From an uncultured Verrucomicrobiales bacterium (GTDB taxonomy: Bacteria; Verrucomicrobiota; Verrucomicrobiia; Verrucomicrobiales; Akkermansiaceae), in NCBI GenBank assembly GCA_937951675.1, contig CALFBI010000002.1:1-64000 (forward strand): 64,000 nt of DNA, read 5' to 3'. Positions within the stretch are counted from its first letter, which is position 1. Each line of letters starts with the position of its first letter. Positions 646-22,309 of the stretch are shown here, piece after piece. The position numbers and the translations under genes were made by a program. The notes beneath the pieces are model-generated. The model worked only from the letters and a program-made list of their open reading frames with translations, did no database searches and was not told where the DNA came from.

Positions 646-652
646 AAAACGT

Positions 653-3338: not shown

Positions 3339-3863
3339 ATGAAAATTCATCGCTCATCCCGCCCTCAAGGGTTCACTCTTTTAGAGATTTCTATGACCTT
3401 TGTCATCGGAGTTCTCATTGCTTCTGTTGGGTTGGGCCTGATGAACCAAACCGCTCATTTTTATCGGGCGATGCAAGAACAAGAATTTCTTAATAGTGAT
3501 GCGCCCCTCATCAGCAACATCATGTCACGTTTTCTTGATGATGCTGATGCCTACCGGCTTCACACCTCCCTTGCCGACGCTCTTTCTGATACCAACCCTA
3601 CCCTAGATGGCGCGAATACACTCGCCCTTGCTTCTAAAAATCCTGATGGCTCCACCCGGTTTTCTATCGTTCATATGGATAAGAGTAACGGATCTCTTGA
3701 TTACTATTATTTAGAAGAAAATGGAAATTCGGTGAATCCAGCGTGGTCTATTTCAAGGCGCGTCACTGATGTAAATTTTAAAATTGAGCTCGGAATTCTA
3801 CGCATGGAGCTCACCGGGCCAAACAACGAACAAATCACTTATTCAGGATCGATGAAATTATGA
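3339..3863 (+). CDS. Minor pseudopilin (GspJ/PilW-like)
   Basis: This 174-aa protein carries a canonical prepilin N-terminus: a basic leader, then glycine and FTLLEISMTFVIGVLIA, with glutamate at mature position 5. It starts directly after the previous stop and its own stop overlaps the next start by 4 bases (ATGA), so the three genes are tightly coupled. The C-terminal half has the alternating polar/hydrophobic pattern expected for the beta-sheet domain of GspJ/PilW minor pilins. It probably forms a complex with its neighbours that primes pilus or pseudopilus assembly. Which subunit it corresponds to cannot be settled from sequence alone. Confidence 0.8.
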   Translation: MKIHRSSRPQGFTLLEISMTFVIGVLIASVGLGLMNQTAHFYRAMQEQEFLNSDAPLISNIMSRFLDDADAYRLHTSLADALSDTNPTLDGANTLALASKNPDGSTRFSIVHMDKSNGSLDYYYLEENGNSVNPAWSISRRVTDVNFKIELGILRMELTGPNNEQITYSGSMKL

Positions 3864-5786: not shown

Positions 5787-6248
5787 TCAATTCGAAGAAG
5801 GAAGAGTTCCCTTGGCCGGCAGAAGGCCTGGAGTTAAACTCGGTTGATTAGGCTCACTCATTTGCTGCGATACACGAAGGGGCCTGAATGATTCGCTATG
5901 AGTGTCTACCTGAAACTGCAAGCCTAATAAATCGCGATTCGCCTCTTTCATCTTCTGGTCCATCGCAACTTGTTTCGCATGGATACTTTCATAATAGCTC
6001 ATGACGCGCTCAAACTGCTCTTTAATCACCTCATTATCCTGAGTGGAAGCTTTAGGCGTTTCTGCCTCACTCCCACTCTGATCAAACTCAATAACAGGAG
6101 GAGCCTCATAAGGAGCATAAACATATTCTTTTGCCGGCATCACCGACTCTGACAAACTATTCTGTTTCTCTAAATAAAAACTCGTTCCGACAGAGCCCAT
6201 CATAGCCCCTATGGAAAGAATGCATAGTAATTGAATCGTATCTTTCAT
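5787..6248 (-). CDS. Small membrane-anchored protein of the pilus operon
   Basis: A 153-aa protein with one N-terminal hydrophobic segment (about residues 5-24), which could be a signal anchor or an uncleaved signal peptide. The middle part (about 70-115) is charged and helical, plausibly coiled coil; the C-terminus is Pro/Ser-rich. It is the last gene of the long minus-strand unit that begins at 20575. It overlaps its upstream neighbour by 4 bases (ATGA) and converges on the 636-aa prepilin gene with a 16-base gap. I do not recognise the family. By position it is probably an accessory component of the pilus or secretion machine. Confidence 0.6.
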   Translation of the reverse strand: MKDTIQLLCILSIGAMMGSVGTSFYLEKQNSLSESVMPAKEYVYAPYEAPPVIEFDQSGSEAETPKASTQDNEVIKEQFERVMSYYESIHAKQVAMDQKMKEANRDLLGLQFQVDTHSESFRPLRVSQQMSEPNQPSLTPGLLPAKGTLPSSN

Positions 6249-6700
6249 GGCTTAGGGTAAGATAATAATACTTGTTCAAGTTGATAAATAGCCTTGTCTA
6301 AATCTTGGCCTTTTTTCTTTAATGCTAATACTTGTTGAGTGAGTATTTGCTCCAGCTTTTCGCCTTCCACGGAAGGTTCAGGTAAAATATATTGACTTGG
6401 ATTCCCTTCCGGCTGAAGGATTCGGTGAGGTAAAGTGATCCAAATTTTTTGCCCATTTTCAAGAATAAGGGACCGCTGGTATTTCGGTTGTTTATCATTG
6501 GTCTCCAGGAGCCAGCCAACCGGAAGGTCCCGATCTATTTCGGGGTTTGATAAAATAGAAATATTATCAACAGAAGCTAAGTGAAGCTCTTTCTTCTCAA
6601 GTAAAATATTCTCAAAAGGCTGAAGTTCTTGCGCTCCTGCCTCCAACAAAAAACATGGGCCTAACCATAAAAAGGCTCTCGCTATATTAATCAATTTCAT
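6245..6700 (-). CDS. Exported protein of unknown function, pilus operon
   Basis: A 151-aa protein with a signal peptide (hydrophobic stretch residues 7-22, probable cleavage after EAGA or GAQ). The central part contains SLILENGQKIWITLPHRIL, a beta-hairpin-like stretch. The C-terminal 40 residues (EGEKLEQILTQQVLALKKKG and beyond) form a predicted amphipathic helix or coiled coil. It overlaps both neighbours (14 bases upstream, 4 downstream), so it is co-translated with them. No family recognised. It is probably a periplasmic accessory factor of the same machine; that role rests only on gene position. Confidence 0.6.
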   Translation of the reverse strand: MKLINIARAFLWLGPCFLLEAGAQELQPFENILLEKKELHLASVDNISILSNPEIDRDLPVGWLLETNDKQPKYQRSLILENGQKIWITLPHRILQPEGNPSQYILPEPSVEGEKLEQILTQQVLALKKKGQDLDKAIYQLEQVLLSYPKP

Positions 6701-7301
6701 AGTTTAAAGCATTAGAATTTAAAAAAGGTTCTTTTTTCTGATGAGGGGGCTTGCCCTCTTTTTCTAGACGAGTCCAGCTTTCTAGTAATTTTTCTGACTC
6801 TATCTCCAAATCTCGCACTTTTTTTCTTTGAGCCCGAAGGTCCTCCAGTATCTGATGTGCTTGCATCAGATGAGCGTGAGACCATACTAGTTTTTCTTTT
6901 TCTGCTAAAACCGGGACAGAAACTTCTATTTCTGCAATTTTTTCGCCTTCACTCTGGAGCCCTAACAAATAGTAATCCTTAGCGGCAGTCTCCGTATACC
7001 TTGATTCTTTTTGGTTTAACACCATTTCCACGGGCTTACTTTGAGAAACACTTTCCACCCTATCTTGATCAGCTACCTCGAGCGGCAAAGAAGCAGGAAT
7101 ATTCATATGATGATTCACTACTTGGGGCTTTCTTAAATCACCCTGGAACCACACATACGTCAATCCGGCACAGCATAACGTTGCGAGGAGTAGTGGAATA
7201 ACCGACTGCGATTTCGGTTTTTTCGATTCGGAATCTTTATCTGGCCAAGATTCCGAATCGATCTCAAGAGTATGAATTTTATTTAGGTTGGGCCGATCCA
7301 T
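6687..7301 (-). CDS. Bitopic membrane protein with coiled coil, pilus operon
   Basis: A 204-aa protein with about 35 charged cytoplasmic residues, one transmembrane helix (VIPLLLATLCCAGLTYVWF, about residues 34-52) and an extracytoplasmic part. That part ends in a heptad-like coiled coil (about 140-185, rich in Leu, Glu and Lys). This bitopic layout resembles inner-membrane platform components of type II/IV systems such as PilN/PilO/GspC, although no sequence family can be named. It overlaps its upstream neighbour by 23 bases and its downstream neighbour by 14, so it is tightly coupled. Role inferred from topology and context only. Confidence 0.6.
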   Translation of the reverse strand: MDRPNLNKIHTLEIDSESWPDKDSESKKPKSQSVIPLLLATLCCAGLTYVWFQGDLRKPQVVNHHMNIPASLPLEVADQDRVESVSQSKPVEMVLNQKESRYTETAAKDYYLLGLQSEGEKIAEIEVSVPVLAEKEKLVWSHAHLMQAHQILEDLRAQRKKVRDLEIESEKLLESWTRLEKEGKPPHQKKEPFLNSNALNYEID

Positions 7302-7704
7302 AAATGGTAATAATTTGATTAGATAAAGTAGGGAAATGGGTCATCGAAAAATCTGAGCTTGTTAACCGAATATGTCTATATCCCGAAGAAGTTTCACGGG
7401 CTCCTTGTAGGCCTGCCCTCATAAGAAGTGCACGTTGCTCTGAATCAAGCTCTCCTATGCCTTTGTCATCATAGACTACAAAAGAGCTATATTGCCCCTC
7501 TTGATACTCGTAATAAATCATTACTCCGTCTGTAAAAATACTCACTTGGATTGGACTCACTTCAAGCTCAATGACAGAGCCTTTCACAATTTTTATTTTT
7601 TTACTGATTTCATATATGCCTACTAACTGCGCATCTTCCGGAAGAGAGGCTTTTATGGGGGCCACTGAAAAAAGTGACATGAGTAATATCAAAAAAGACT
7701 TCAT
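7279..7704 (-). CDS. Exported protein of unknown function, pilus operon
   Basis: A 141-aa protein with a cleavable signal peptide (MKSFLILLMSLFSVAPIKA). The ATG at 7704 shares a base with the stop of the upstream pseudopilin in a TGATG arrangement, a strong reason to prefer it over the TTG one codon earlier. The mature protein has alternating hydrophobic strands (IVKGSVIELEVSPIQVSIF, VMIYYEYQEGQYSSFVVYD) and looks like a small beta-barrel or sandwich. No family recognised. Position implies a periplasmic accessory of the pilus or secretion machine. Confidence 0.6.
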   Translation of the reverse strand: MKSFLILLMSLFSVAPIKASLPEDAQLVGIYEISKKIKIVKGSVIELEVSPIQVSIFTDGVMIYYEYQEGQYSSFVVYDDKGIGELDSEQRALLMRAGLQGARETSSGYRHIRLTSSDFSMTHFPTLSNQIITIYGSAQPK

Positions 7705-8114
7705 CAAAATTTACCTACATCCCAAAGCGAATCTTCCGAAGAATCTGAAAGATCATAAACCCCTCCACTTCCATCATTGATATTAGCGGGCATCGTAGCA
7801 ACGTTAATGGTTAAGACTTCATCATTAACTCCTTTAATCGTAGGGAAGCTTGTCACTTGATTTGGAAGATAAGGAAGAAGTTTTGCATTCGTTAGAGAGC
7901 TTACGGTCTCATGTGGGTGATCTGCTAGATAAGTTCTTTGTGCAACATAAACGGATCGTAAAGTTTCAGATGCGTCTTTCCCTAAACGCCATTCTCCCAT
8001 TCCTCCGGCGACATGTAAGCTTGCTGACATCATCGCAATAAGAATAAAAATAACGAGCGAAATTTCGAGCAACGTCAGTCCTCGATTACGATATGGTTTC
8101 AACTTTATTCTCAT
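7704..8114 (-). CDS. Pseudopilin (GspG/GspH-like)
   Basis: A 136-aa prepilin-like protein. The leader ends NRG, followed by LTLLEISLVIFILIAMMSAS with glutamate at mature position 5, as required for PilD processing and assembly. The ATG at 8114 was chosen over an in-frame TTG at 8123. The ectodomain begins with a helix (DASETLRSVYVAQRTYLADH) as in GspG-type pilins. It lies between a small membrane protein and a chain of small exported proteins, away from the major pilin at 16.5-17.0 kb, so it is probably a minor or alternative subunit. Confidence 0.8.
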   Translation of the reverse strand: MRIKLKPYRNRGLTLLEISLVIFILIAMMSASLHVAGGMGEWRLGKDASETLRSVYVAQRTYLADHPHETVSSLTNAKLLPYLPNQVTSFPTIKGVNDEVLTINVATMPANINDGSGGVYDLSDSSEDSLWDVGKF

Positions 8115-8164
8115 AATACCCAACTGAGTATCTTACATGAATTTCATGTCATTGCGAACAAAAA

Positions 8165-8587
8165 TCATAGCTTTCTTATTCTCTGAAATTCTTCCCATGC
8201 TTCATTAATAATTTTCTGATTTTCAGGTTTTGTGAAAAAATCATACATCCAGACTCCCAAAGTGAGCACTAAGAGGAATAAAAGCCCCAACCTTACAACC
8301 GTGAAGGTGAAACTCTCTTTTTTACGGCATAAACACTTTGATGCTAATGTATTTTTAGCTTTCACCGTCGAGGCGTAAAGTAACTGATTAGACTTCAGGT
8401 AATTAATAAAATCTTGAGCCTCTTTCCCACATTCAAAAATAAATTCGTATTGATACTTGGAAATCGAGGATTTGCTTGTCTCTTTTGGCTTGGGATACTT
8501 AATCCCTTCTGGCAAACGGTGCGTAAAAACATGAGTGCGGTAGGCATATTTTCTCTTAAGCCCTTGATCTAAACGAGTTTGCTGCAT
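8165..8587 (-). CDS. Single-pass membrane protein, pilus operon
   Basis: A 140-aa protein. About 95 residues of basic, Lys/Tyr-rich N-terminal sequence precede one transmembrane helix (about residues 96-116, LGLLFLLVLTLGVWMYDFF) and a short charged tail. Its topology suggests a cytoplasmic N-terminal domain anchored in the inner membrane. A CLCR motif near residue 85 lies close to the membrane. It lies directly downstream of the GspF/PilC gene (15-base gap). I do not recognise it; a role in anchoring or regulating the inner-membrane platform is possible but unproven. Confidence 0.6.
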   Translation of the reverse strand: MQQTRLDQGLKRKYAYRTHVFTHRLPEGIKYPKPKETSKSSISKYQYEFIFECGKEAQDFINYLKSNQLLYASTVKAKNTLASKCLCRKKESFTFTVVRLGLLFLLVLTLGVWMYDFFTKPENQKIINEAWEEFQRIRKL

Positions 8588-8602
8588 TTTCGAATATTAA
8601 TT

Positions 8603-9760
8603 TTATAAGCCTGACTGCATTAATCTTGGCCCCATTAAGAAAATAGGAAGAAAAGCGCTAATAAAAACGGCCGCAATTAATGAGACTGCCGTGATGATCA
8701 CAATCGCATTAACCACTTGTGTAAATGTTTCCATATAGTTTTCAGAGTCTTCTTTATACATGTCTGATAGAAGACCTAACTGATCATCTATCGACGCAGA
8801 TTTCTCCCCAATAGCCATCATATGGCAAACTTGCTCATCGACTGAAGTGTAGGTTAAAAAAGCAGTCGATAAGGCTACTCCAGTATGTTCATAACTATCC
8901 GCTGCCTCAACGACTTCATCATAAAGAGCGCTTCCTTTCACACTCGTCGCACCGACTCGAATTGATTTAGCTAAATTAATTCCATTAGAATGTAATAATC
9001 GAATTGTTGAAAGTAATGTTAACTGTCGCAACGACATGATTAAATTTTTTAATAAACGCCATTTTGACATCATTAGATTTAAAACGAACGTCTGAGCATT
9101 TTTAGAAAATGACAGAGTAAGAATCACTCCAACTGCTCCCGCGAAAATCAAAGGCCAAAAATCTTGAATGAAATGACTCATCCCAAAAGCGGCTTTGGTA
9201 AGAGGGTCTGGTTCTTGCTTCACTTGACTCAGCATATCCTCAACTTGAGGCACAATTTTCACTTGTGCTACGACGAAAGCACCGAATAAAACGGGAATAA
9301 CGATACAGGGAATCATCACTACTTTTTTGAGCTGCTTTTTAAACGTCATATCCGTTTTCATCCTAGCAGCCAAAGCAGCAAAAGCTTGGTCGAGGCGGCC
9401 AGCATCACTCCCTGAACGAATGAGACCCACGGTCATGTCATTAAAACAATTCGATCTACGAAAAGCATCATGAGTTGAAATTCCATTCATAATATCTTCT
9501 CGAATTTGATCGAGAGCTTCCCCCATTTTTTTATTTGGAAGACCATGGCTATAATACTTAATCGCATCAGCGGTATTAATTTGAGCTTTAAGCATCGAGC
9601 CCACTCCTCGGAAGAATTGAATCAGCTCTTTTTGCTTAAATTTTTTGACCTGCTTTTTGCCCGAAGACAGGAATGCAATCTCCCTTTTCCATAAAGGAGG
9701 CTTCTTCGCTCTTGTCATCGAACCGGAACCCGATTCGGTTGTTGTTTCAATCACCGGCAT
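8603..9760 (-). CDS. Inner-membrane platform protein GspF/PilC
   Basis: A 385-aa member of the type II secretion F family, the polytopic platform protein that couples the assembly ATPase to pilin polymerisation. It has two T2SSF-type repeats: QFFRGVGSMLKAQINTADAI with SGSDAGRLDQAFAALAARM, and QLTLLSTIRLLHSNGINLAK with AIGEKSASIDDQLGLLSDMY. Each is followed by hydrophobic membrane helices (about residues 150-180, 200-225 and 345-375). Length fits the family (about 400). It overlaps the upstream ATPase gene by 14 bases. The N-terminal 40 residues are basic and cytoplasmic. Confidence 0.92.
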   Translation of the reverse strand: MPVIETTTESGSGSMTRAKKPPLWKREIAFLSSGKKQVKKFKQKELIQFFRGVGSMLKAQINTADAIKYYSHGLPNKKMGEALDQIREDIMNGISTHDAFRRSNCFNDMTVGLIRSGSDAGRLDQAFAALAARMKTDMTFKKQLKKVVMIPCIVIPVLFGAFVVAQVKIVPQVEDMLSQVKQEPDPLTKAAFGMSHFIQDFWPLIFAGAVGVILTLSFSKNAQTFVLNLMMSKWRLLKNLIMSLRQLTLLSTIRLLHSNGINLAKSIRVGATSVKGSALYDEVVEAADSYEHTGVALSTAFLTYTSVDEQVCHMMAIGEKSASIDDQLGLLSDMYKEDSENYMETFTQVVNAIVIITAVSLIAAVFISAFLPIFLMGPRLMQSGL

Positions 9761-11441
9761 AAGTCATATCAATTACTTTACTTAAAGCAGCAAGGTCTGT
9801 TTTACCTTCCTTTAAAAATTTTAGCCCACTTCTTCTAAGGTTAGGCAACACCCCTTCTTTTTCGACTTTCACCTCAAGATCATAAGGTGAGATTTCTCCC
9901 TTAGAAAGTTGATCAGACACTTTTGGAGTAATTGGAATAATTTCCAAAATCGCACTGCGCCCTACATAACCTGTCATTCGACATTCTGGACATCCTTCCG
10001 CGCTACCCTGATAAATAGGAGTCTCTTCCCATTCTTCGCCTAAATTATAAAGCCGCCGATCATGGCTACTCAATCCTGCTTGCTCCATTTTACAATAAGG
10101 ACAGAGCATTTTTATGAGACGCTGAGCGCATGCCGCTTTGAGAGTCTGCGCAATCTTCCATCGCTCAATCCCTAATTGCTCAAAACGTTCAATAATCTGT
10201 GAAGCTCTTGGGGTGTGAATCGTTGTTAAAACTTTATGTCCCGTCACCGCGGCCTCAATCGCTAACTCTGCGGAGTCGTAATCTCGAACTTCTCCCATTA
10301 GAATAATATCAGGATCACTCCGCATGAAGGAACTAATCATCGGCTTAAATTCGCTCGCATTTTTCAAATCACAATGAGTCACTCCCGCGATTTCATCTTC
10401 CACTGGATTTTCAAGAGTAAGGATATTGACCTCGGGACGGTTTAACTCTCTTAAAATAGCATTGAGAGTCGTTGATTTACCTGATCCAGTCGGCCCACTC
10501 ATTACAATAATTCCCGCTGGGACTTTCATCACTCGATTCAGCTCAAAAAGAGTTTCTTCATCAAAAGCAAGAGAGCCCTTTCCTAAAGTGACACTAATAT
10601 TTCCCTTATCGAGAAGTCGCATCGTAATATGATAGCCACGGTAAGTGCGGTGACGTTCGTATCGAATATCAATAGGCCGATTGAAATAGGAAATAGTAAA
10701 CCTTCCTGAAATTCCTGGAGTGGTGTTCCGAATCTCGGTTGGAAGGTGCATCAGATTGAGAAGGTAAGCATCTAACCGGTCTTTCAACTTCATCGGGATC
10801 TCGATTTTTTCTTTGAGATCCCCATCAATCCTCAGCGTGTAATAAAACGATTCTTTTTCGACTTTGAAATGAATATCAGAAGCTCTTCTTTTCACGGCCT
10901 TCCCCATGATATTTGCCACTAAATGAGCAATAGGTTCCTCATAGGTTTTCGTGACATCAAAATCATGTAACTCATCTTCAAGGTCCTCAACATCGATTGC
11001 TTCGAGCTCTGTTTTCGATGGACCTGACGAAGTCGCCATTTTTTCAATCGCTCGACTAATCTCTGGGGCAATGGTAACAATCGGATCTAGTTCATATTCA
11101 GGAAACCGCTGTGTTAGATATTCTTCATAAAGCGCGTTCCAAGGGTTAACAATCGCTACAATGAGCCGCTTTCCGATGACTGCTACTGGCACAAAAAGCC
11201 CTCTATTTAAAATAGAAGGAGCGCATTTATCCAGTAATTTACTGTCACAAAATTCTGCCACTTTTGGCATAAATGCATGAGCACTACATTCTGCTACTGC
11301 AGACATAAAGCTGGACCGAGTCACTCGACTAGGAATTAATTCATGCGTGATGTCTTTATGATTAGGGTCATGTTCCGAAAGAATCACCATCAATCGCTGG
11401 CTAATCATTCCATTAAAAGTAATGCCATCGTATTCAATCAT
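9747..11441 (-). CDS. Assembly ATPase GspE/PilB
   Basis: This 564-aa cytoplasmic hexameric ATPase powers pilus or pseudopilus extension. It has an MshEN-like N-terminal domain (to about residue 130), then the Walker A box GPTGSGKST (about 316-324), an Asp box, Walker B DPDIILMGEVRD (376-387) and a His box (TGHKVLTTIHT, 400-410). Two Cys pairs (CPYC at 447-450 and CPEC at 484-487) form the tetracysteine zinc motif of PilB/GspE. The gene overlaps neighbours on both sides (4 and 14 bases). A second ATPase of PilT type at 17-18 kb suggests separate extension and retraction motors. Confidence 0.95.
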   Translation of the reverse strand: MIEYDGITFNGMISQRLMVILSEHDPNHKDITHELIPSRVTRSSFMSAVAECSAHAFMPKVAEFCDSKLLDKCAPSILNRGLFVPVAVIGKRLIVAIVNPWNALYEEYLTQRFPEYELDPIVTIAPEISRAIEKMATSSGPSKTELEAIDVEDLEDELHDFDVTKTYEEPIAHLVANIMGKAVKRRASDIHFKVEKESFYYTLRIDGDLKEKIEIPMKLKDRLDAYLLNLMHLPTEIRNTTPGISGRFTISYFNRPIDIRYERHRTYRGYHITMRLLDKGNISVTLGKGSLAFDEETLFELNRVMKVPAGIIVMSGPTGSGKSTTLNAILRELNRPEVNILTLENPVEDEIAGVTHCDLKNASEFKPMISSFMRSDPDIILMGEVRDYDSAELAIEAAVTGHKVLTTIHTPRASQIIERFEQLGIERWKIAQTLKAACAQRLIKMLCPYCKMEQAGLSSHDRRLYNLGEEWEETPIYQGSAEGCPECRMTGYVGRSAILEIIPITPKVSDQLSKGEISPYDLEVKVEKEGVLPNLRRSGLKFLKEGKTDLAALSKVIDMTYAGD

Positions 11442-12019
11442 ATCCCAAAATGTTTTTTATTTAAAAAACTCCATCCATCAAAATCTAAGCAAATTAAAGA
11501 AACATAAGGGGTAATCCCGGTCTCCTGTTTGACTTGTTTTATGATTTCTTCTCTTAGAATCATGGCCGCAATAGGATTGATAGATCCCACTCCAAAGCTT
11601 TCCATCTCTTCAACAAAAAGCACCGGACATTTAAGCCTCTTTGAAAGTTTCTTAATATCAGGGTAATTTTCGTAGAAGGCAGAAGGAGTCATCATCTTAC
11701 TCGCAAAAGGAAGTAACGCGGCCTGGATTCCGGTGATGTCTATCATTTCTTGTGATAAAGCCAGCATGAAACCATTCTCTTTTTCCGCCAAGGGGCATAC
11801 TTGCTTCAAAATATCCTCGGCAGGGTCTCCAAAGGATCTCGTTAGCACTTTATCTTCTCCATGCTGTTCTAGCCACTGAATCCATTCCTTACCGACCATT
11901 TCGGAATCCGCCAAGCAACGACCTGCACTTTCATAGCATGAACGATGAAGACGATCTATATCATCTTCCGTCAACATCACGTCACTAAAAGGGGGGTGAT
12001 TTGATTCAATAGTAGACAT
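11438..12019 (-). CDS. Uncharacterised cytoplasmic protein between secretin and GspE
   Basis: A 193-aa protein without signal peptide or membrane helix. It begins with an acidic segment (MLTEDDIDRLHRSCYESAGR) and contains two or three predicted helical regions plus a hydrophobic strand motif (CPVLFVEEMESFGVGSINPIA, about residues 130-150). It overlaps the secretin stop by one base and the ATPase start by 4 bases, a position where pilus operons sometimes place ATPase regulators. No homology recognised. It is probably a cytoplasmic partner or regulator of the adjacent ATPase, inferred from coupling alone. Confidence 0.6.
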   Translation of the reverse strand: MSTIESNHPPFSDVMLTEDDIDRLHRSCYESAGRCLADSEMVGKEWIQWLEQHGEDKVLTRSFGDPAEDILKQVCPLAEKENGFMLALSQEMIDITGIQAALLPFASKMMTPSAFYENYPDIKKLSKRLKCPVLFVEEMESFGVGSINPIAAMILREEIIKQVKQETGITPYVSLICLDFDGWSFLNKKHFGI

Positions 12020-13656
12020 TATCGTTTCCGTCGGTGGTATGATTTTCTTTTAGTTGATTTCACCGAGCGCGTATTTCCTCGAGAACTCCGCTTAAAAGGT
12101 TTCTTCAATTTACTAACGAAAGAATCCGGATTAGGATCGTGTTGACGCTGCGGAACATTGGGATCTATAAAATCATGCCCTGGTTTAATTTCTATTCTCT
12201 GCTTCGCTCTTTCTAGCTCACGATCGCTGATAATACTCTTCTCCGGAGAATAAGTTTTAGGCGTGATAACAAATACAAGAGAGGTCTTCTCTTTCCGAGT
12301 TTGAGAGCTTCGAAACATAAAACTGATTCCGGGAATATCACCCAGAATAGGAACCTTATTACTCTCCTCAGAGCTTGTTTCACCATAAAAACCACCAATG
12401 AGTAAAGAATGCCCATCTGGAACTCTTGAAATGGCTTCGATGGTTGACTCTGTCACTCGTGGGTAGCTATTTCCTCCCGCGCTAGTAATATTTTCGGTGA
12501 TTTGAGCGGTTCGCGGTCGCATATTCATCCGAATGGTGCCATCCGGAAGTGCGGTAGGTGTGACCGAAAGTGTAATTCCAATTTCACGAGTTTGATCAGC
12601 TCCATCTGCAATCGTTTTATCACTTTCATCAATTTTATACCTCACATCATCCGTAAAAATCGTATCGTTTGCTGTCGTAGTTCGTTCTGTAATAATGATC
12701 GGAACACGATCAATAATCGAAATCGAAGCTGGCTCGTTATCTTCTGTAATAACAGTCGGGTTTGACAACTCTGTCGTCACGCCCCCTTCTCTCAGGGCCC
12801 GAAGAACGGCGCGTAACTGTATTGGAGATAAAACAAGTGAAGAAGAAGCCGTCTCTGTTGCCGCTGATCCATCTTCTCCAATCGCAGTCAATACCGACAA
12901 GCCTTCATCTACCGGGAAATTGAAGAGTCGCGCTAAACTTCCTGATAAAATAGTCTGAGCGCCTTCTCTTCCGAGCATGCTTGACCAATCTACCCCTTCA
13001 TACTTCCCTACTGCAGAGCGCACTCGTAAAATTTTTGTTTCTACGATGATTTGCCCTTTAGGTCGGTCAATTTTCTGAACAAATTTTTTCACCTTCTCGA
13101 TGTTTTTCGAGTTATCGATCACGATCAAAGTGTTTGTTTTTGTTTCATAATTGACACTACTTTTCCCCCCTGCGGTATCCGACAAGAAAGGCCTAATAAT
13201 ACTTTTAATTTGTTCGATATCGGTAGGCCGCAAATAGCGTAATTGATAATGCCATTCAGACGAAGGCATTTGCCCCATTTGAGATGGAGTCATTGCATAA
13301 ACGGTATCACCTTTCTCATAAAGAGTCAGGCCATACATAAATGCCAATTCATCCATTTGTTTAATAGGCTCCCCTTCATTCAGATGGCCTGTTACTGAAT
13401 ATTCAGGTCCTGAAATTCTCGAATTATGAAAATATTGACGTCCTGCTTCTTTCGCCAAAAATTGCAAAATATCATTCAGCGAAGCATCTTGCATCAAAAA
13501 GCCTGAATCAGACTCTTGGAAGGCAGAGACAATGGGGTCACCAGTCTCAGGGTCTCTTTCGTAGATTGGCTCTTCCCCTGGCAAAATATTGTTTAACTCT
13601 TCTTGAGAGAAAAGAAATTGCGGGATTAAAAGTATTAATAATATGAGTTTCTTCAT
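12019..13656 (-). CDS. Outer-membrane secretin (GspD/PilQ family)
   Basis: This 545-aa protein forms the outer-membrane channel for the pilus or secreted substrate. A signal peptide (MKKLILLILLIPQFLFS) is followed by an N0/STN-like domain (LQFLAKEAGRQYF region, about 55-120). Next comes an N1-type KH domain (YLRPTDIEQIKSIIRPFL to KVKKFVQKIDRP, about 140-200). The secretin core ends with VPILGDIPGISFMFRSSQT (about 425-445), the hallmark of the family. The C-terminal tail is strongly basic (Lys/Arg/Ser-rich, last 40 residues). Its start and stop overlap the neighbours by one base each. Confidence 0.95.
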   Translation of the reverse strand: MKKLILLILLIPQFLFSQEELNNILPGEEPIYERDPETGDPIVSAFQESDSGFLMQDASLNDILQFLAKEAGRQYFHNSRISGPEYSVTGHLNEGEPIKQMDELAFMYGLTLYEKGDTVYAMTPSQMGQMPSSEWHYQLRYLRPTDIEQIKSIIRPFLSDTAGGKSSVNYETKTNTLIVIDNSKNIEKVKKFVQKIDRPKGQIIVETKILRVRSAVGKYEGVDWSSMLGREGAQTILSGSLARLFNFPVDEGLSVLTAIGEDGSAATETASSSLVLSPIQLRAVLRALREGGVTTELSNPTVITEDNEPASISIIDRVPIIITERTTTANDTIFTDDVRYKIDESDKTIADGADQTREIGITLSVTPTALPDGTIRMNMRPRTAQITENITSAGGNSYPRVTESTIEAISRVPDGHSLLIGGFYGETSSEESNKVPILGDIPGISFMFRSSQTRKEKTSLVFVITPKTYSPEKSIISDRELERAKQRIEIKPGHDFIDPNVPQRQHDPNPDSFVSKLKKPFKRSSRGNTRSVKSTKRKSYHRRKR

Positions 13657-14261
13657 TATCTTTGATTTGTCACATCTGTAACTTTAGGTTGAATAATCAT
13701 TTCCTGATTTTGCTTCTGAGCATTTGTATAAAAACCTTTCACATCGCGAAGAGTTCTTTTCTTTTTCGTCATTCCTTTCGGAATATGATCAAGATCTCTA
13801 ACTATTTTTTTTCCGGAAGAAACATGCTCAAAAATGATTTTTCCCCTGCCAAATGATGAGAGCTTAAAAGTGCTTTTTTGATTCTGATAATTGATCGGAA
13901 TCACATCGCCCAACCGAATGGGCCGGTTCCCTGAAAGAATCATTCTTTTTTCAGGCATCACGACGGTAATTGGAATCGCATCAATTATTTTTTGGAACGG
14001 AATCTGAGACTCATGTATTTTTTCTGGTGATTCCTGGAGACTACTAAGATTTACTTCCTTTTTCTCTACTTCTTCTTGATAGAGACCAAATGAATCAACA
14101 AGATCTTGATTGATCGTAAATGTTGCTTGTATTTTTTTTACTCTTTCCTCTGGGGTTTCAAATGTATAACGAGATTCCAGCAAATCAGCTTCTAACTGAT
14201 CCTCCCCAAATACCTGAGAAAAAGTAATTACTAATAGTAAAACAGTTGATTTAATGATCAT
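13656..14261 (-). CDS. PilP/GspC-like periplasmic protein
   Basis: A 201-aa protein with a signal peptide (MIIKSTVLLLVITFSQVFG). The ATG at 14261 gives an ATGA overlap with the upstream stop, so it is preferred over the TTG three codons earlier. The C-terminal half (about 95-165) has a beta-rich segment, RMILSGNRPIRLGDVIPINY followed by a lysine-rich region. This is like the homology-region domain of PilP/GspC that contacts the secretin. It lies directly before the secretin gene, as pilP does before pilQ. Assignment is by position and general layout; sequence similarity is weak. Confidence 0.6.
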   Translation of the reverse strand: MIIKSTVLLLVITFSQVFGEDQLEADLLESRYTFETPEERVKKIQATFTINQDLVDSFGLYQEEVEKKEVNLSSLQESPEKIHESQIPFQKIIDAIPITVVMPEKRMILSGNRPIRLGDVIPINYQNQKSTFKLSSFGRGKIIFEHVSSGKKIVRDLDHIPKGMTKKKRTLRDVKGFYTNAQKQNQEMIIQPKVTDVTNQR

Positions 14262-14788
14262 TTTCTCCAAACTGTATAATTCATTTGGAAAGATAGCCTC
14301 TCCTGCTTAGGGACCCGCGAAATAATCATCCGATCAAGCTGAAAATGCGGCAATTGGCTTTCAAATTCAACAAGAGCATTCTGCATCGCTCGATAAGTTC
14401 CTCGAAAGCTCAATAAAACTTCTGCAGAAGGGTGGCTTACCTTAGAGCCGAAACCCTTATTAACGCTATTGGCGCTGAAAGAAGTTTGCTGTAAATCTTT
14501 ACTCGAATATTTTTCCTGTAATTTCTTCATGACTGCTGTCACTTGCCCCGAAATTTCTGCATCAAACAGCCCCTCCCACTTCTTTGAATATTTAAGAATC
14601 GCACGTGTCTCTTTCTCCGTTATTCTCAACTCCTCTTCCTTCGCATCTTTTTGTGCTTGTAGCCCTAATTGAACCTTATATTTTTTTGTGATTTTTTGTT
14701 TGCTCGAGATGAAAACAGACGTGATTACAATCACCGTAAGAAGCGGAATCACAAATCCAAATATAATAATTGCTCGTTTATAATTCAT
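14258..14788 (-). CDS. PilO/GspM-like inner-membrane protein
   Basis: A 176-aa bitopic protein with a short basic cytoplasmic tail and one transmembrane helix (about residues 6-27, IIIFGFVIPLLTVIVITSVF). A coiled coil follows (about 30-85), then a ferredoxin-like C-terminal domain ending in MNYTVWRK. The segment LSFRGTYRAMQNALVEFESQ matches the PilO/GspM style 'F.G.Y..l..fl..lE...p' pattern. It overlaps both neighbours by ATGA. It should form the inner-membrane alignment complex with the GspL-like protein upstream. Confidence 0.75.
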   Translation of the reverse strand: MNYKRAIIIFGFVIPLLTVIVITSVFISSKQKITKKYKVQLGLQAQKDAKEEELRITEKETRAILKYSKKWEGLFDAEISGQVTAVMKKLQEKYSSKDLQQTSFSANSVNKGFGSKVSHPSAEVLLSFRGTYRAMQNALVEFESQLPHFQLDRMIISRVPKQERLSFQMNYTVWRK

Positions 14789-16443
14789 TTCACTTTAAGT
14801 GAGTTGACATCACTAGGTTCGTTTCTTTGTTGGATTTCTGCATCAAAAATAATAGGGTAAGACCCTGAACTTAAACTCGACGCTTTCGTGTTTATATTAA
14901 CAACTAAATTTCTAGTTTTATAGTTTAAATTGAACGCGTCATTTTGAGTTTTTTCTGCAAGATCATTAAAAACCTTCATCACCCGGTCTTGACTATTTAG
15001 ACCGGCAAGGTAGCTGCGAGATTTTTCTGTAGCTCTCCCTCTAATTTCTAGCTTTTTAATATGACCAGTATGATTGCCTTTCTCTGCCTTCAAAGGCGCA
15101 AATATATAAGTCACTTTTGATAGCTCTGTTCCTTTATCACCAGGGAATGCCGAACTCACTAGTTCCATAACCTCCCACCCTTCAGAACGATCTTCGAGTA
15201 ATGAGTCCCATTTCTCTAGTTTGCTTTTCTTTACAGACGCCTTTTTCAAACTCATTTCTGTAATAGCAATTGCCTGATTTGTTAAACTCCACTCGGGAGT
15301 CGAAGTCATTTTAAAAGTTTCGTATAAAGACTTCCCTGAGATAGTAACGCATAGAAAAATAGCTATAATTTGAAGAAACTTACTTGAAGAAAGTAATTTC
15401 ATCTCTGTATAAGAAGGATAAAGATTTAACTCTTCGTCTGGAATCGTCTCAAAATTTTGAACGGCCCAATGAGACACCATTTTTTTGTGCTCCATCTTAG
15501 ACCATGCTGCAAACTCTAGGCGCTCTACTTTCAATTCTTTCCAATCAATAATCGACGTTTTTTCACGACCTTGCCTTTCTAGTTGGATTTTAAGGCGTGC
15601 CAAAATAGAGCCCTCTCCACTTGGACTGACTAATGAAAGATCGTAGTCGTCAATTTCAAGCTGATCGGCTGTTGTCTGAACTGACTGCAGAAAGTTATTT
15701 GGTATTTTATTCCCATAGTGAGAAATGGCCCGATAAAAAAGAGGGGTTCGAACTTCTCCATAAAAAAGAAGAAGGGTGAATTTATTATAAATAACTGCTA
15801 CAATATGGGGCTTAGGGCTTTCTGGTAGTAATTCTGGAATATAATGAGCCAGTAAAATAGGGCTCACTTGTAATGAAGTGATAATGGGGATATTCAAACT
15901 TTCCCCTTTTTTTCTCCATTGTCTTAAAAAAAGTTCAAAGTCATCTTTGACCAGGCATACAAGATAAGCTGGCAAAGCTTCATTTGACCGAGCTAATGGT
16001 AAGGCTCTCTTCAGCGAGCCATCTTCATCAGCACGAGGATCATCTAAAACCTCCTGTGCTTGGCCTACAAGTAATTCATTCACCTCTTCCCACTTTTTTG
16101 CCGCATACTTACGGCGTCCTTCTTGTAAATTAAGTTCATGAGAAGCGTGAACAATAATTCCAATTCCTTCATTTGAATTAACCTTTGTATGAGCTAAAAG
16201 ATTATCCGCAAATTGATTCCAATTTTCTTCTTCTAAAACCTCTTGCAGAGGGAGTGTCTTAATATTTTCCCACTGATCAATACCAGCACGATAAAGTTCA
16301 ATCCGAACTTGTTCGGCATTAATAATAAAAAAATGAATCTGTGTGATTTGTTCTGAGGCCGAAAGATACCAACTTTTGTTTTTATCACGACTCGTGTTTT
16401 TTTTCACACGCTTCGCTTGCCTATAATTTTTATAAATCCCCAC
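14785..16443 (-). CDS. GspL-like (PilM-PilN fused) inner-membrane protein
   Basis: A 552-aa protein with a large cytoplasmic actin-like region (to about 350), one transmembrane helix (about 355-371, KFLQIIAIFLCVTISG) and a periplasmic coiled coil plus C-terminal domain. This arrangement corresponds to GspL, or to PilM joined to PilN. GspL recruits the assembly ATPase through its cytoplasmic domain. The start codon is GTG (16443); the next in-frame Met is more than 300 residues in. It is preceded by a perfect 12-bp hairpin that separates it from the pilin gene. It overlaps the PilO-like gene by 4 bases. Confidence 0.75.
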   Translation of the reverse strand: MGIYKNYRQAKRVKKNTSRDKNKSWYLSASEQITQIHFFIINAEQVRIELYRAGIDQWENIKTLPLQEVLEEENWNQFADNLLAHTKVNSNEGIGIIVHASHELNLQEGRRKYAAKKWEEVNELLVGQAQEVLDDPRADEDGSLKRALPLARSNEALPAYLVCLVKDDFELFLRQWRKKGESLNIPIITSLQVSPILLAHYIPELLPESPKPHIVAVIYNKFTLLLFYGEVRTPLFYRAISHYGNKIPNNFLQSVQTTADQLEIDDYDLSLVSPSGEGSILARLKIQLERQGREKTSIIDWKELKVERLEFAAWSKMEHKKMVSHWAVQNFETIPDEELNLYPSYTEMKLLSSSKFLQIIAIFLCVTISGKSLYETFKMTSTPEWSLTNQAIAITEMSLKKASVKKSKLEKWDSLLEDRSEGWEVMELVSSAFPGDKGTELSKVTYIFAPLKAEKGNHTGHIKKLEIRGRATEKSRSYLAGLNSQDRVMKVFNDLAEKTQNDAFNLNYKTRNLVVNINTKASSLSSGSYPIIFDAEIQQRNEPSDVNSLKVK

Positions 16444-16468
16444 TGATTTTTATATAGAGTGATATTAA

Positions 16469-16496
16469 AGGTCTGCTCTTAATAAAGAGCAGACCT
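16469..16496 (-). terminator. Strong intercistronic hairpin after the pilin gene
   Basis: AGGTCTGCTCTT and its exact complement, separated by AATA, form a 12-bp stem with a four-base loop. It lies between the pilin stop (16512) and the GspL-like start (16443). On the minus strand it is followed only by TTTAATATC, a weak T-tract, so partial termination or mRNA 3'-end protection is more likely than full termination. Either would raise pilin levels over the assembly genes downstream. Confidence 0.65.
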
Positions 16497-16511
16497 AAAA
16501 ATAACATTCAC

Positions 16512-16955
16512 TTACCAAGTCGTAATATCACTAGGAACGTGATTATCACTTGCTGCATTTTGGCATACTTTCCATAAAGTTCCAACCGCTGGAACGTTTC
16601 CTGCCGAATTATCGGAATAGGCATCACCATCTAAAGGGCAAGTCGCATCATATGCAGCTACTACAGGAGGAACCGCAGTAGCATCACCTCCCGTTCCGCC
16701 CATGAATCCTGCGGCAATAATAGCGTCGTCTGATACTGCAGAGCCAATATCTACCTCATTCAAGTTAGCATATGAACGAATTCCTTGCTGGAATGCTCTC
16801 AAGTTCAGAATACACGCCGCACGGTCAGAACCCTCTTTCCATGCTCTAGCGCCAATGAAGAGAACACTCACGAGTGATAATAATACAACGATAACTACGG
16901 TTAACTCAATAAGAGTTACCCCTTTTCTACTTATTTTATATGTTTGTTTTTTCAT
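16512..16955 (-). CDS. Major pilin/pseudopilin
   Basis: A 147-aa prepilin. The leader is MKKQTYKISRKG, cleaved before VTLIELTVVIVVLLSLVSVL, with glutamate at mature position 5. A helix continues through the AACILNLRAFQQGIRSYANL segment, typical of major pilins and GspG-type pseudopilins. A C-terminal Cys (VCQNAAS) and an earlier Cys (ATCPLDGDAYSD) could form the D-region disulfide of type IVa-like pilins. It lies between the PilT-like ATPase and a strong hairpin, a layout that permits higher expression than the machinery genes. This is the best candidate in the window for the filament subunit. Confidence 0.88.
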   Translation of the reverse strand: MKKQTYKISRKGVTLIELTVVIVVLLSLVSVLFIGARAWKEGSDRAACILNLRAFQQGIRSYANLNEVDIGSAVSDDAIIAAGFMGGTGGDATAVPPVVAAYDATCPLDGDAYSDNSAGNVPAVGTLWKVCQNAASDNHVPSDITTW

Positions 16956-16997
16956 ACTACTTTTGTTTGTTTTGTTTTTCTAAAACTAAGCCTTCCT

Positions 16998-18233
16998 CTA
17001 GATTTCATTTAAGTCATCTCTTGAAAGGCGGGCGTTTTCGAAAGTTTCTTGTGTGATTTTTCCCTCTGCTAAAAGGGATCCTAGCTTAATATCCCAGCGG
17101 ACATTCCCAGTTCTCATAATGGCATCCTCTAAAGAGTTTGAACCTTTATCATAATGGGCGATTGCGGCACCTACAGAATCATCTGAGTTATGAAGGAACT
17201 CATAAGTCAAAACCCTTTGGTCAACTCCTTTAAGTAACCCTTGCGATTGGATGAAAATTAGAGTCTCTCCTAAACGGTTCAGAACGGAGGAATGACTTTC
17301 TTTAGGATACATTTCTAAAATCCTTCCGATTGTTTTTACGGCTCCTGTCGTATGCAAAGTAGATAAGACAAGGTGACCTGTTTGCGCCGCCTCCATGCAA
17401 GTCTCCATTGCTTTACGGTCTCGGATCTCACCTAGTAAAATAATATGAGGAGCCTTCCTGAGAACATCTTTTAATCCTTGGCTAAAATCTTCGATATCAC
17501 GGCCCACTTCTTGTTGAGTCACTAAAGCGGGAGCTAATACCTTTTCCCCACTCGCTTGATCCTCCATATCAACCGGATAGGCATACTCAATCGGATCTTC
17601 GATTGTTACGATATGCTTATTATGATTTTTTCTTACCCAATCTACTAGCGCTGCTAAAGTTGTTGATTTACCTGATCCGGTGGGTCCTGTCACTAAGCAT
17701 AATCCGGCTCTCTTCAACACGCATTTTTTCATCGTGTCAGAGATATCAGGATCTATACCCAAAATGTCAATTGAGGGAATTCCATCATTTAAAATACGGC
17801 AAGTCATTCCTAATCCGCTTGCACTCAAATGAGCCTGCACCCGTAATCGACCTGAAACTTTCCCCTTTCCATAAGGAACTCCAGGAGCAGAAAAATCTGC
17901 AACCATCTTTTCTGTAAAGCAAGAGACTTCACGGTCGTAAACAAGGTCAGGGGAAAGTGCTGTATCACTACTCTCTCCAAATCCATGACTTGCCGACTCT
18001 CTATTAAAGACGAAAAATTTGAAAATTCCTTCTACCTCTTTATGAGTCACAACTCCAAATTCCTCTAGACGTTCCATCCCATGATGCGTCTCGACATAAA
18101 CAAATTGATTCGAACGAATTTGAATATCAGAGACGCCCATCTCTACTGCTACCTCAAAGAGATAGTTAATGAGCTCATTTGTATCGCGATGAATCACGTT
18201 ACTGCTCTTTAAGTCTGTCGTAGAGGAAACCAT
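16998..18233 (-). CDS. PilT-like twitching/retraction ATPase
   Basis: A 411-aa ATPase of the PilT/VirB11 family. It has an N-terminal PAS-like domain (GVSDIQIR, about 33-40), Walker A GPTGSGKST (183-191), an Asp box (VTIEDPIEY, 209-217), Walker B HIILLGEIRD (263-272) and a His box (TGHLVLSTLHT, 285-295). It lacks the tetracysteine motif of PilB, as expected for retraction-type motors. The canonical PilT C-terminal AIRNLIRE motif is not visible; the tail ends FENARLSRDDLNEI. Length is longer than PilT (about 345) because of an enlarged N-terminal part. Probably drives filament retraction. Confidence 0.88.
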   Translation of the reverse strand: MVSSTTDLKSSNVIHRDTNELINYLFEVAVEMGVSDIQIRSNQFVYVETHHGMERLEEFGVVTHKEVEGIFKFFVFNRESASHGFGESSDTALSPDLVYDREVSCFTEKMVADFSAPGVPYGKGKVSGRLRVQAHLSASGLGMTCRILNDGIPSIDILGIDPDISDTMKKCVLKRAGLCLVTGPTGSGKSTTLAALVDWVRKNHNKHIVTIEDPIEYAYPVDMEDQASGEKVLAPALVTQQEVGRDIEDFSQGLKDVLRKAPHIILLGEIRDRKAMETCMEAAQTGHLVLSTLHTTGAVKTIGRILEMYPKESHSSVLNRLGETLIFIQSQGLLKGVDQRVLTYEFLHNSDDSVGAAIAHYDKGSNSLEDAIMRTGNVRWDIKLGSLLAEGKITQETFENARLSRDDLNEI

Positions 18234-18236
18234 CGT

Positions 18237-19094
18237 TTAATTAGCTGCAATTTTCTTGAGCATGAAATCGTTCGAATCTTGAACACTCATCATTCCACGA
18301 GCTCTTTGGCTCATGATTGCAATTTGTTTATGGGGGTATTGAATCTGCTCATTCTTATCAGCAAGAAGCTTATAAAACTTATCTAAGTATTCCTTAGCGG
18401 CGGCATTAACTCTTTCTGGATAAAAAGCTTTCCCTACCGTTCGATCAAAATTAACCAGGACATCGATCATCCCTTGCGCCGCGGCGGCGGCAGTTAGCAT
18501 GGCGCGTGGATCTTCGGGGTAACGGTCACAAAAACTTATCGTTTCTTTTGCCATTTGAATTGCCGCAAAATAATCACGTTTTGATTTAGCTACTTCTAAC
18601 TCTGTTAAAAAAAGATGATAGCAGCTATAATTCGCAAAATTAGTTGGATCTAATTTCCATGCTGTTTTTAAACGGGTCTCTACTTGCGCTCTCAAATAAG
18701 CCACATGTGACTCTTGATTGGAATAAGGGTTTGTTCGGTGGTTTTTAGCCGCTCCCATCGCTTTCAAATACCCTTTGAAAGTCCAAGGCTCTTTCTTTTT
18801 CTCAACATGATGATCGTGTCCGTGATGATCGTGTCCGTGATGATCGTGATCACATTCTTCTGAATGACATACATGACCTTCTTCCTCTTCATGATCATGA
18901 GGGCGGCCCTGATGCCAAAAAAGATCAATCGGCCCTTGCACTGCTGCTCCTAACGTTCGCCCGTATGGGCTTCCATAAAGACTCATAGGGTTAGGGTCTA
19001 AAGCCATTAATTTTTTCTCTTCTAAACTTTTACCATAATGCAGGTAAAATATAGATGATACTACGATCAATGCTGAAGAAATTATTATTTTCAT
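18237..19094 (-). CDS. His-rich membrane-anchored protein of unknown function
   Basis: A 285-aa protein with an N-terminal signal/anchor helix (KIIISSALIVVSSIFYLHY). The ATG at 19094 was preferred to a TTG three codons earlier. A remarkable cluster of His, Asp and Glu follows (about residues 70-100: HDHEEEEGHVCHSEECDHDH, then HHGHDHH repeats), a likely divalent-metal-binding loop. The C-terminal half is helical, with an FANYSCYHLFLTELEVAKSK segment resembling tetratricopeptide-type repeats. It lies three bases upstream of the PilT-like gene and just downstream of an ABC exporter. No family recognised; metal buffering or sensing is inference. Confidence 0.65.
   Translation of the reverse strand: MKIIISSALIVVSSIFYLHYGKSLEEKKLMALDPNPMSLYGSPYGRTLGAAVQGPIDLFWHQGRPHDHEEEEGHVCHSEECDHDHHGHDHHGHDHHVEKKKEPWTFKGYLKAMGAAKNHRTNPYSNQESHVAYLRAQVETRLKTAWKLDPTNFANYSCYHLFLTELEVAKSKRDYFAAIQMAKETISFCDRYPEDPRAMLTAAAAAQGMIDVLVNFDRTVGKAFYPERVNAAAKEYLDKFYKLLADKNEQIQYPHKQIAIMSQRARGMMSVQDSNDFMLKKIAAN
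18808..18849 (-). repeat. 15-bp tandem repeat inside the His-rich coding region
   Basis: Unit TGATGATCGTGTCCG on the plus strand, about 2.8 copies from 18808 to 18849, in frame with the reading frame. Each copy encodes a His/Gly/Asp block (HGHDH). Copy number could vary by slippage without changing frame, altering the length of the metal-binding loop. Confidence 0.8.
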
Positions 19095-19141
19095 CGTTTT
19101 CAAAAAAGGGGAGGGGAGGGTTAAGAAATTTTTAAAATAAC

Positions 19142-19909
19142 TTATCGAGCACTTTTAATACTATAGCTCATTCGGCTCATAAGCAAGATGATTCCGCTCA
19201 ATGATCCAAAATAGAAGATCATCTGGAAAAATGATTCTGTCTCGAGTGATCCCGCTTTGAAAATAAATCTCGGGGTCAAGTCAGCCAGATGATAATGAGG
19301 CGAGGCAAGCCACATCCATTCGATCAAAGGCACTGAATTTTCTTTAAAGAGTTGATCAAGATATCCTACTCCATAAAGTCCGTAGATCGCTAACGACAAG
19401 GTCACTAAATAACCTACTGTGCAACCGAATCGGTTTGCCAACGACAAGGCCAGCACACTGAGGGGGATGGTTACAAGGAGGAATAGCAATCCAGCCTGGA
19501 TTGTTGTTTTCACCCAGTGTGCGGCCTCTGTTGCATCAGAAGGCATAGCGAATAGAAGAGTAACTAGCATCGCAGTTATTGCAATTGGAACTAAAAAAGT
19601 CATAACAACCAAGCTTAACTCCGCAATTTGACGAGAAGGGCTAAACCCTTTACTAGAAAAGTATTCACATAGTCCCGACTTTCTAAAATGATCTCCTATC
19701 GCAGCTGATTGATAAAAAACCCACAATAAAGAAACTCCCCATGCTAGCCCCCAAGCCGCTTGGGCTCGTGCTGGCTCAAGCAATCCTCGGTGAAACTCAA
19801 CTGGACTCAAAAGCGGTAAAACTATAGGGCCTCCAATCATTACAAGTATTGCTACGATCCAGAGCTTGCGGTAGAGAACTACATTGAGTCCTAATTTATA
19901 AATAGTCAT
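19142..19909 (-). CDS. ABC-2-like transporter permease
   Basis: A 255-aa protein with six hydrophobic segments (about residues 16-36, 50-75, 93-117, 135-160, 165-185 and 225-245). This matches a half-size ABC-2-type exporter permease. It has no ATP-binding motif and no signal peptide. Its start lies 6 bases after the stop of the ATPase gene upstream, so the pair forms a two-component ABC module. It heads the transcription unit that includes the pilus machinery. Substrate unknown; ABC-2 systems commonly export polysaccharides, drugs or lipids. Confidence 0.75.
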   Translation of the reverse strand: MTIYKLGLNVVLYRKLWIVAILVMIGGPIVLPLLSPVEFHRGLLEPARAQAAWGLAWGVSLLWVFYQSAAIGDHFRKSGLCEYFSSKGFSPSRQIAELSLVVMTFLVPIAITAMLVTLLFAMPSDATEAAHWVKTTIQAGLLFLLVTIPLSVLALSLANRFGCTVGYLVTLSLAIYGLYGVGYLDQLFKENSVPLIEWMWLASPHYHLADLTPRFIFKAGSLETESFFQMIFYFGSLSGIILLMSRMSYSIKSAR

Positions 19910-19915
19910 TTTTTC

Positions 19916-20575
19916 TTAGCTTAAAATTGTTTTCAATTCTTTCCATCGGATACCACTAGCATCATAGTGATGAATTTTACCCTCGTTGATAGTAAGAGCA
20001 CTGTTGCAAACCATCCCATCATTATCGGGGTGGCAGCTAATGACTCTCAGGATATTTTTATTATTTTCACTCCAATACTGATAGATAGTATCTCGAGCGT
20101 TTTGATCTAATCCCGTTAAAGGCTCATCTAGTAAAATGATATTATCTTTATTCTTCACCTCGGAAAACTCAGAGATGATTAAAATCACTTTGCGTTTGTT
20201 CCCTGTTGAAAGCTTTCCGTAAGTCTTTGAGAGATCAATTTCTAAATCCTCAATTAATTGTTGCGCTTTTTTGAGAGCCTTTTTTGATAACAAAGATCTA
20301 AAAATAGAAGCTACCGTAAGGCTTTGGTCAAACTTAAGATCTTCTGACAAATACTGCATTCCTGAAAAGGTTTTATGCTTCCCATTAATGGGCTTGATAC
20401 TACCCGCTAGAGTTCTAAGTAAAGTTGTTTTACCTCTTCCGTTACGAGCAAATAAGTAATGAGTTCCCTCTTCTAGCTCTATCGCAACTGGCGCTTTTGC
20501 AAGCGGCTTTTGATAACCAATCTCGAACCCTTCACTCAGCTCAAGCCTGCACTTCGTATCTTTTCTTTGATGCAT
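19916..20575 (-). CDS. ABC transporter ATP-binding protein
   Basis: A 219-aa nucleotide-binding subunit. Walker A reads ARNGRGKTT (about 43-51, an A-x4-GKT form), the Q-loop glutamine is in MQYLSED, and the signature is LSTGNKRKV (a variant of LSGGQ). Walker B with D-loop is NIILLDEPLTGLD (about 145-157), and the H-loop is SCHPDND. The signature deviates from the consensus but keeps LS-x-G and the following Arg/Lys. It is the first gene of the long minus-strand unit and has a good promoter candidate 45 bases upstream. It powers the permease at 19142-19909. Confidence 0.88.
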   Translation of the reverse strand: MHQRKDTKCRLELSEGFEIGYQKPLAKAPVAIELEEGTHYLFARNGRGKTTLLRTLAGSIKPINGKHKTFSGMQYLSEDLKFDQSLTVASIFRSLLSKKALKKAQQLIEDLEIDLSKTYGKLSTGNKRKVILIISEFSEVKNKDNIILLDEPLTGLDQNARDTIYQYWSENNKNILRVISCHPDNDGMVCNSALTINEGKIHHYDASGIRWKELKTILS

Positions 20576-21457: not shown

Positions 21458-21489
21458 TTTAGGGGTTAGCTTTGAGAAAGTGAAAAAAG

Positions 21490-21521: not shown

Positions 21522-21545
21522 CCCAACAAGTAGTAGTATGAAAAT

Positions 21546-22208: not shown

Positions 22209-22309
22209 AATAATATGTTTTTTGTTGCATGCAACTTTTGGGAGGCTGCGGCTTCGTTTTATGAGCGCTCTCTCATCCTGGCAAGAAAAATTAACTCCCA
22301 AACAGATTC

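Follow-up and report, generated by a model that had tools for sequence, protein, structure and literature searches.

The verrucomicrobial gene cluster described here encodes a type IV filament machine headed by an ATP-binding cassette (ABC) transporter, and conservation among relatives indicates that the three transporter genes are very probably a dedicated part of the filament system. The cluster lies on the minus strand of a 64,000-nucleotide stretch (positions 1 to 64,000 of contig CALFBI010000002.1, assembly GCA_937951675.1; hereafter the window) from an uncultured Verrucomicrobiales bacterium of the Akkermansiaceae. Starting at 20575, genes for an ABC ATPase, an ABC-2 permease and a histidine-rich, membrane-anchored protein with a tetratricopeptide-repeat (TPR)-like half, here called the trio, precede those for pilins, a secretin and the assembly ATPase GspE. 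This pump probably serves the pilus machine and is not a chance neighbour, because the trio is inherited together with the machine.

Conservation and co-inheritance of the trio

Of 58 relatives, 29 carry the permease and 25 the His-rich protein. A GspE orthologue (57-76% identity, paralogues reaching ~36% or less) is present in 28 of these genomes, all of which carry the permease, as compared with one of the 30 that lack the orthologue (Fisher 2e-15, shared ancestry ignored). The exception is a genome of 84% completeness that carries the locus on a short contig. In a survey of 285 members of the class, the permease occurs in 21/21 genomes with the 193-aa protein encoded between secretin and GspE and in 1/264 without it (Fisher 7e-31, again ignoring shared ancestry). 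Besides the 21, one genome has a clear permease but no 193-aa protein, and another has a weak match of the distant type. The system is absent from a genus of many small, nearly complete genomes, which is probably Akkermansia.

The first-pass annotation had placed the ABC/His-rich pair with the pilus genes, an assignment that is borne out by its conservation beside such genes in most relatives, by the near-perfect co-occurrence and by the fusion of permease and partner in two lineages. The trio stands beside pilus genes in nearly all of 28 loci (each up to 20 kb) and is divergent in two of them; in the Verrucomicrobium-like family it comes after GspF and a pilin, and PilT and the minor pilins are encoded on the opposite strand. 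In 80 further named loci, permease and His-rich protein occur together without exception and the ABC gene is adjacent in 73, while pilus genes directly flank the trio in about 60 by our count, in two arrangements. That an unrelated ABC operon happens to lie upstream of a pilus operon would fit the unlinked trio of some Roseibacillus-type genomes, but the co-occurrence over 58 and 285 genomes, the two arrangements and the presence of the trio even when unlinked make such a coincidence extremely improbable. In one genome with an unlinked trio (G015), the GspE orthologue was found on another contig. The trio or the ABC gene has been relocated in some genomes, yet is still present: where the ABC gene was absent from the locus, an orthologue (~292-296 bits) was found elsewhere in the genome in four of five cases tested, the fifth being a 2.2-Mb, possibly partial assembly.

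Some relatives show further variation. Two Akkermansiaceae loci (L149 and L165) carry two copies of the gene for the 636-aa minor-pilin-like protein, which flank the exported-protein genes, and have the ABC ATPase gene elsewhere in the genome. Three pairs of trio loci (L110/L112, L111/L117 and L119/L123) each derive from the same assembly, which suggests two trio copies, at least one of them without adjacent pilus genes. The GspE-like frame of another relative (G041:C54:12970-14166) contains two internal TGA codons.

The ABC-2 proteins and their histidine-rich partner

The ATPase, whose gene adjoins that of the permease in most relatives, retains Walker A (ARNGRGKTT), signature (LSTGNKRK) and Walker B (DEP) motifs and the H-loop His; in most members the first glycine of Walker A is replaced by alanine. 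The window permease itself gave no family match, and 7 of 28 orthologues matched the ABC-2 family ABC2_membrane_3. Its AlphaFold2 (AF2) model (predicted local distance difference test, pLDDT, 92.8) matches NosY best (Z 16.2, 238 aligned residues covering the full length, root-mean-square deviation 4.0), with ABCA transporters at Z ~15, CcmB at Z ~14, and Wzm, KpsM and peptide exporters also among the fold matches. The modelled fold is thus that of an ABC-2 permease and nothing narrower. Since ABC-2 permeases include such exporters, the pump could instead export a polysaccharide, lipid or peptide as a substrate of its own, either to coat the filament or because adhesion needs it, its genes being merely co-regulated with the pilus. 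We consider this improbable, as no substrate gene, be it for a glycosyltransferase, a peptide precursor or anything else, was recognised in the cluster, and a dedicated partner accounts better for the fusion to the TPR-like protein and for the near-perfect co-occurrence.

The partner has a hydrophobic helix at the N terminus and a disordered His tract at residues 70-102, and its C-terminal half is helical and TPR-like. In two loci (L042 and L081, the latter from another family of the class), permease and His-rich protein domain are fused in a single open frame, and the helix thereby added to a permease with both termini inside the cell would place the partner in the periplasm. In L081 this frame spans 8825-11047 (-); the ABC gene, fused permease, 140-aa protein, pilin and minor pilins form one run after GspF, and in the 0.6 kb that separate secretin from GspE no 193-aa gene was recognised. 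Among 95 distinct partner homologues, an S-x-[YF]-G stretch is retained in 94 and [WFI]-H-x-G in 68. A search of relatives' contigs with the His-rich protein alone gave no match, its query patterns lying on variable stretches.

Weak permease matches in other Verrucomicrobiota extend this picture to a divergent trio, in which nearly all of 17 loci combine an ABC ATPase, an ABC-2 permease and a TPR protein. About 12 of the 17 lie beside ExeA-, GspC- or GspE/F-like genes; genes for an ExeA-like AAA protein and for a GspC-like protein often come next after the trio, and in five loci GspE or GspF follows within ~10 kb. Profile comparison with hhalign supports homology of the divergent and window trios, both for the permease (E 1.4e-11, 97% probability) and for the partner, compared with TPR partners from across the phylum (E 1.9e-5, 78% probability). 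In the divergent partners a His-rich stretch, where present, is mostly C-terminal, and an aromatic-H-x-G-like motif occurs in 17/17.

A strong His tract, defined as a window with at least six His in 20 residues, is found in 35/95 partner homologues as opposed to 0/287 other cluster proteins. Together with NosY as best fold match, and with the C-terminal tails and conserved motif of the divergent partners, this would fit metal handling of the NosDFY type, in which the His-rich protein gathers copper, zinc or nickel in the periplasm and the ABC-2 complex spends ATP to load the metal into part of the pilus or into a protein that leaves through the secretin. NosDFY likewise comprises an ATPase, a NosY-fold permease and a periplasmic partner; that partner, NosD, is a beta-helical and not a TPR-like protein, and the partner model obtained here is all-helical. 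However, 60 of the 95 homologues fall under the His threshold, some with only 1-3 His per 20 residues, the NosY fold is common to ABCA, CcmB and many other ABC-2 proteins, and no NosD-, NosL- or NosZ-like gene was recognised in the cluster, though no search was aimed at the NosD family, so that we hold metal handling to be unlikely. The first-pass suggestion of a metal or ligand coupled to the filament gains from the confinement of the tract to the partner, but a tract that is strong in 35/95 and shifts in position leaves the coupling unproven, and to treat the His tract as a defining property was rejected as too strong a claim.

Class of machine, gene order and transcription

The cluster belongs to the type IV filament superfamily, since a single locus unites a secretin, a GspE-type ATPase, a platform protein of the GspF type and class III prepilins: PF00263, PF00437 and PF00482 exceed their curated cut-offs, and TIGR02532 does so on the pilin. 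Narrower classes were rejected on scores below cut-off, namely the type IVa pilus (T4aP; PilQ TIGR02515 147.9 vs 284 bits, PilB TIGR02538 316.8 vs 676, PilT TIGR01420 238 vs 319), the type II secretion system (GspD TIGR02517 145.8 vs 351 bits, GspE TIGR02533 279.6 vs 630, GspF TIGR02120 131.5 vs 424), the mannose-sensitive haemagglutinin (MSHA) pilus (MshL TIGR02519 121.8 vs 250 bits) and the Amuc_1098-type pilus (secretin NF042912 64.9 vs 750 bits). The Akkermansia Amuc_1098 pilus is likewise a secretin-type pilus from the Verrucomicrobiota, and its host probably belongs to the same GTDB family. The MSHA pilus has a similar order of GspL/M/P-like genes, secretin, GspE (with MshEN), GspF and pilins; the present cluster differs in its PilT-like and ABC genes, and MshM (an ExeA-like AAA protein) was found neither among the 18 minus-strand genes nor in the plus-strand module. 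MSH systems are almost always encoded at a single locus and lack a prepilin peptidase of their own (PMC6668835). The host genome (a 2.05 Mb assembly in 28 contigs) has one prepilin peptidase gene, not linked to the cluster, and four secretins; this cluster is therefore one of several filament machines in the genome.

A type II secretion system in which the trio helps to load or release secreted proteins would agree with the fused architecture of the GspL-like protein, the GspM-like match and GspF as best match of the platform protein. Conservation of the PilT-like ATPase in the cluster and the tandem copies of the presumed major pilin in some relatives nevertheless point to a pilus, as do the secretin and GspE, which score highest against PilQ and PilB, although below cut-off, and we regard a secretion system as somewhat unlikely.

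The tight packing of 18 co-directional genes reported in the first-pass annotation was recovered in full and in the same order: from the ABC gene onwards the spacings are 6, 38, 3, 42, 68, -4, -13, -1, -1, -4, -14, 15, 41, -4, -23, -14 and -4 nt, which verifies its 1-, 4- and 13-23-base overlaps. Family matches to ABC_tran, T2SSE (twice, one nearest to the PilT family), N_methyl, secretin and T2SSF confirm its gene identities (Table 1). The GspL-like, PilP-like and 193-aa proteins had no match in Pfam/NCBIfam-type family searches, nor did Pfam match any orthologue of either the GspL-like or the His-rich protein; profiles of the permease, the His-rich protein and the 193-aa protein retrieved no significant relative from PDB sequences. 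Since most gene families recur in relatives with their order kept, the cluster is not a product of mere chance. It begins with the ABC gene, because the upstream neighbour, endonuclease III (20804-21457), lies 228 bases off across an AT-rich gap and had no match in any fetched locus of a relative. At its other end, the conserved system exceeds the previously annotated 5787-20575 and includes the plus-strand genes at 614-5770, as these genes, for two exported and three minor-pilin-like proteins, accompany the cluster in 24-30 loci; the 174-aa protein among them scores just under the cut-off of TIGR02532.

Table 1. Features of the filament cluster and its plus-strand module
Feature	Position	Strand	Basis
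ABC ATPase, 219 aa	19916..20575	-	PF00005
ABC-2 (NosY-like) permease, 255 aa	19142..19909	-	model fold, orthologue family matches
His-rich, membrane-anchored, probably periplasmic TPR-like protein, 288 aa	18237..19103	-	model, profile comparison
PilT-like (retraction-type) ATPase, 411 aa	16998..18233	-	PF00437 E 5.5e-41; best NCBIfam TIGR01420
Prepilin-like protein, presumed major pilin, 147 aa	16512..16955	-	N_methyl / TIGR02532
12-bp perfect hairpin, terminator- or attenuator-like, 3' of pilin gene	16469..16496	-	sequence, folding energy
GspL / PilM-N-like, 552 aa	14785..16443	-	position and anatomy; no family match
GspM / PilO-like, 176 aa	14258..14788	-	NF040576 GspM E 0.0028, below cut-off; orthologues
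PilP-like, 204 aa	13656..14270	-	position; orthologues weakly conserved
Secretin, 545 aa	12019..13656	-	PF00263 E 7.6e-37, PF03958
Conserved 193-aa protein between secretin and GspE, system-specific	11438..12019	-	orthologues; no family
GspE/PilB-like assembly ATPase with MshEN domain	9747..11441	-	PF00437 E 2.9e-79, PF05157
GspF/PilC-like platform protein	8603..9760	-	PF00482 E 2.2e-31
140-aa single-pass membrane protein, conserved	8165..8587	-	orthologues
Second prepilin-like protein, 139 aa	7704..8123	-	weak N_methyl; orthologues 37-54% identical
Four small exported/membrane proteins (142, 204, 151, 153 aa)	5787..7707	-	204- and 151-aa proteins poorly conserved
Convergent minor-pilin module (153, 174, 636 aa)	2877..5770	+	same system in relatives
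Two exported proteins (214, 341 aa) accompanying minor-pilin module	614..2280	+	tblastn matches in 24 and 26 loci

The packing agrees with the first-pass reading of the genes as one operon; a single even transcript of all 18 genes is nevertheless unlikely, because a hairpin stands at a conserved place after the major pilin. The perfect 12-bp stem lies within the 68-nt gap before the GspL-like gene (minimum free energy -26.6; z -7.1 against mononucleotide shuffles). Counting hairpins stronger than 30 shuffles, 12/15 relatives have one in this gap, as compared with 0/10, 0/13, 4/17, 0/5, 1/6 and 0/6 for other gaps, and its position is kept while its sequence varies. This pattern suggests attenuation or 3'-end protection that would let pilin exceed the machinery. 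A promoter scan returned sigma-70-like and terminator-like sites at shuffle level and did not list the pilin hairpin, probably owing to its weak T-run. For most of the 18 genes (5787-20575, minus strand), the 18 bases preceding the start codon show no obvious Shine-Dalgarno motif. Beyond endonuclease III, also on the minus strand, a strong 17-bp terminator-like hairpin with a T-tract (21487-21524) follows a 3D-domain gene (21546-22313), whose start overlaps an AAA ATPase gene (22310-23986) by 4 bases.

A possible role in filament assembly

The first-pass annotation had called an ABC exporter at the head of a pilus cluster not a standard arrangement, for which Myxococcus xanthus PilGHI, encoded in a T4aP cluster, is in fact a precedent (PMC3924187; PMC3724824; PMC5544727). 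In PilGHI (TCDB 3.A.1.144.5), too, a pilus locus encodes an ABC ATPase, a permease and a partner outside the cytoplasm, though in another phylum, with another gene order and within a classical T4aP pilMNOPQ cluster. It is listed as needed for social (S) motility, pilus assembly and pilin export (PMC3924187) and described as essential for pilin translocation (PMC3724824); deletion mutants have defects in S motility and exopolysaccharide (PMC5544727), and some further Deltaproteobacteria carry related clusters (PMC6060248). We call the arrangement in the window PilGHI-like by gene content and literature.

On this analogy, the trio may be an ABC-2 transporter whose ATP cycle drives the periplasmic TPR partner on pilus assembly, a proposal that we place ahead of the other readings but whose odds we put at about even. 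GspE would extend the filament of this Verrucomicrobiales machine, and the PilT-like ATPase would probably retract it. The machine would carry its own ABC-2 complex, made up of the ATPase, the NosY-like permease and the membrane-anchored periplasmic TPR partner, and this complex may associate with the pilus. ATP-driven movement of the permease could be passed to the partner (mechanotransmission), which would then act on periplasmic pilus parts, either in pilin release or insertion or in assembly of the GspL/M/P-secretin stack, as is thought for PilGHI. The His-rich linker might serve as an accessory metal- or pH-responsive element.

Several points weigh against this proposal. In about a dozen loci, mostly Roseibacillus, the trio lies away from pilus genes, and the Fisher values above do not account for shared ancestry among the genomes. 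The TPR-fold matches of the partner (Z ~10) may reflect a generic helical arrangement, and Foldseek gave no match with E < 0.001 for the model of either permease or His-rich protein. The analogy to PilGHI draws on gene content and reported function. Finally, a literature search found no paper on this cluster and no experiment on any of its members.

We further speculate, although we consider it quite doubtful, that a metal-binding ABC-2/TPR complex drives or gates filament assembly by ATP from the periplasmic side throughout the phylum, and that the His-rich partner makes filament function depend on metal state. If true, this would give pili a second energy source besides GspE. To our knowledge, it is still unclear why some pili need an ABC transporter, as is the case for PilGHI in Myxococcus. 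Altogether, across an order the pilus and a trio analogous to PilGHI are inherited together; the trio recurs in divergent form elsewhere in the phylum and sometimes has its partner fused to the permease. This co-inheritance narrows where to look, and the question is directly testable in the cultured species Haloferula rosea, Luteolibacter pohnpeiensis and Roseibacillus persicicus.

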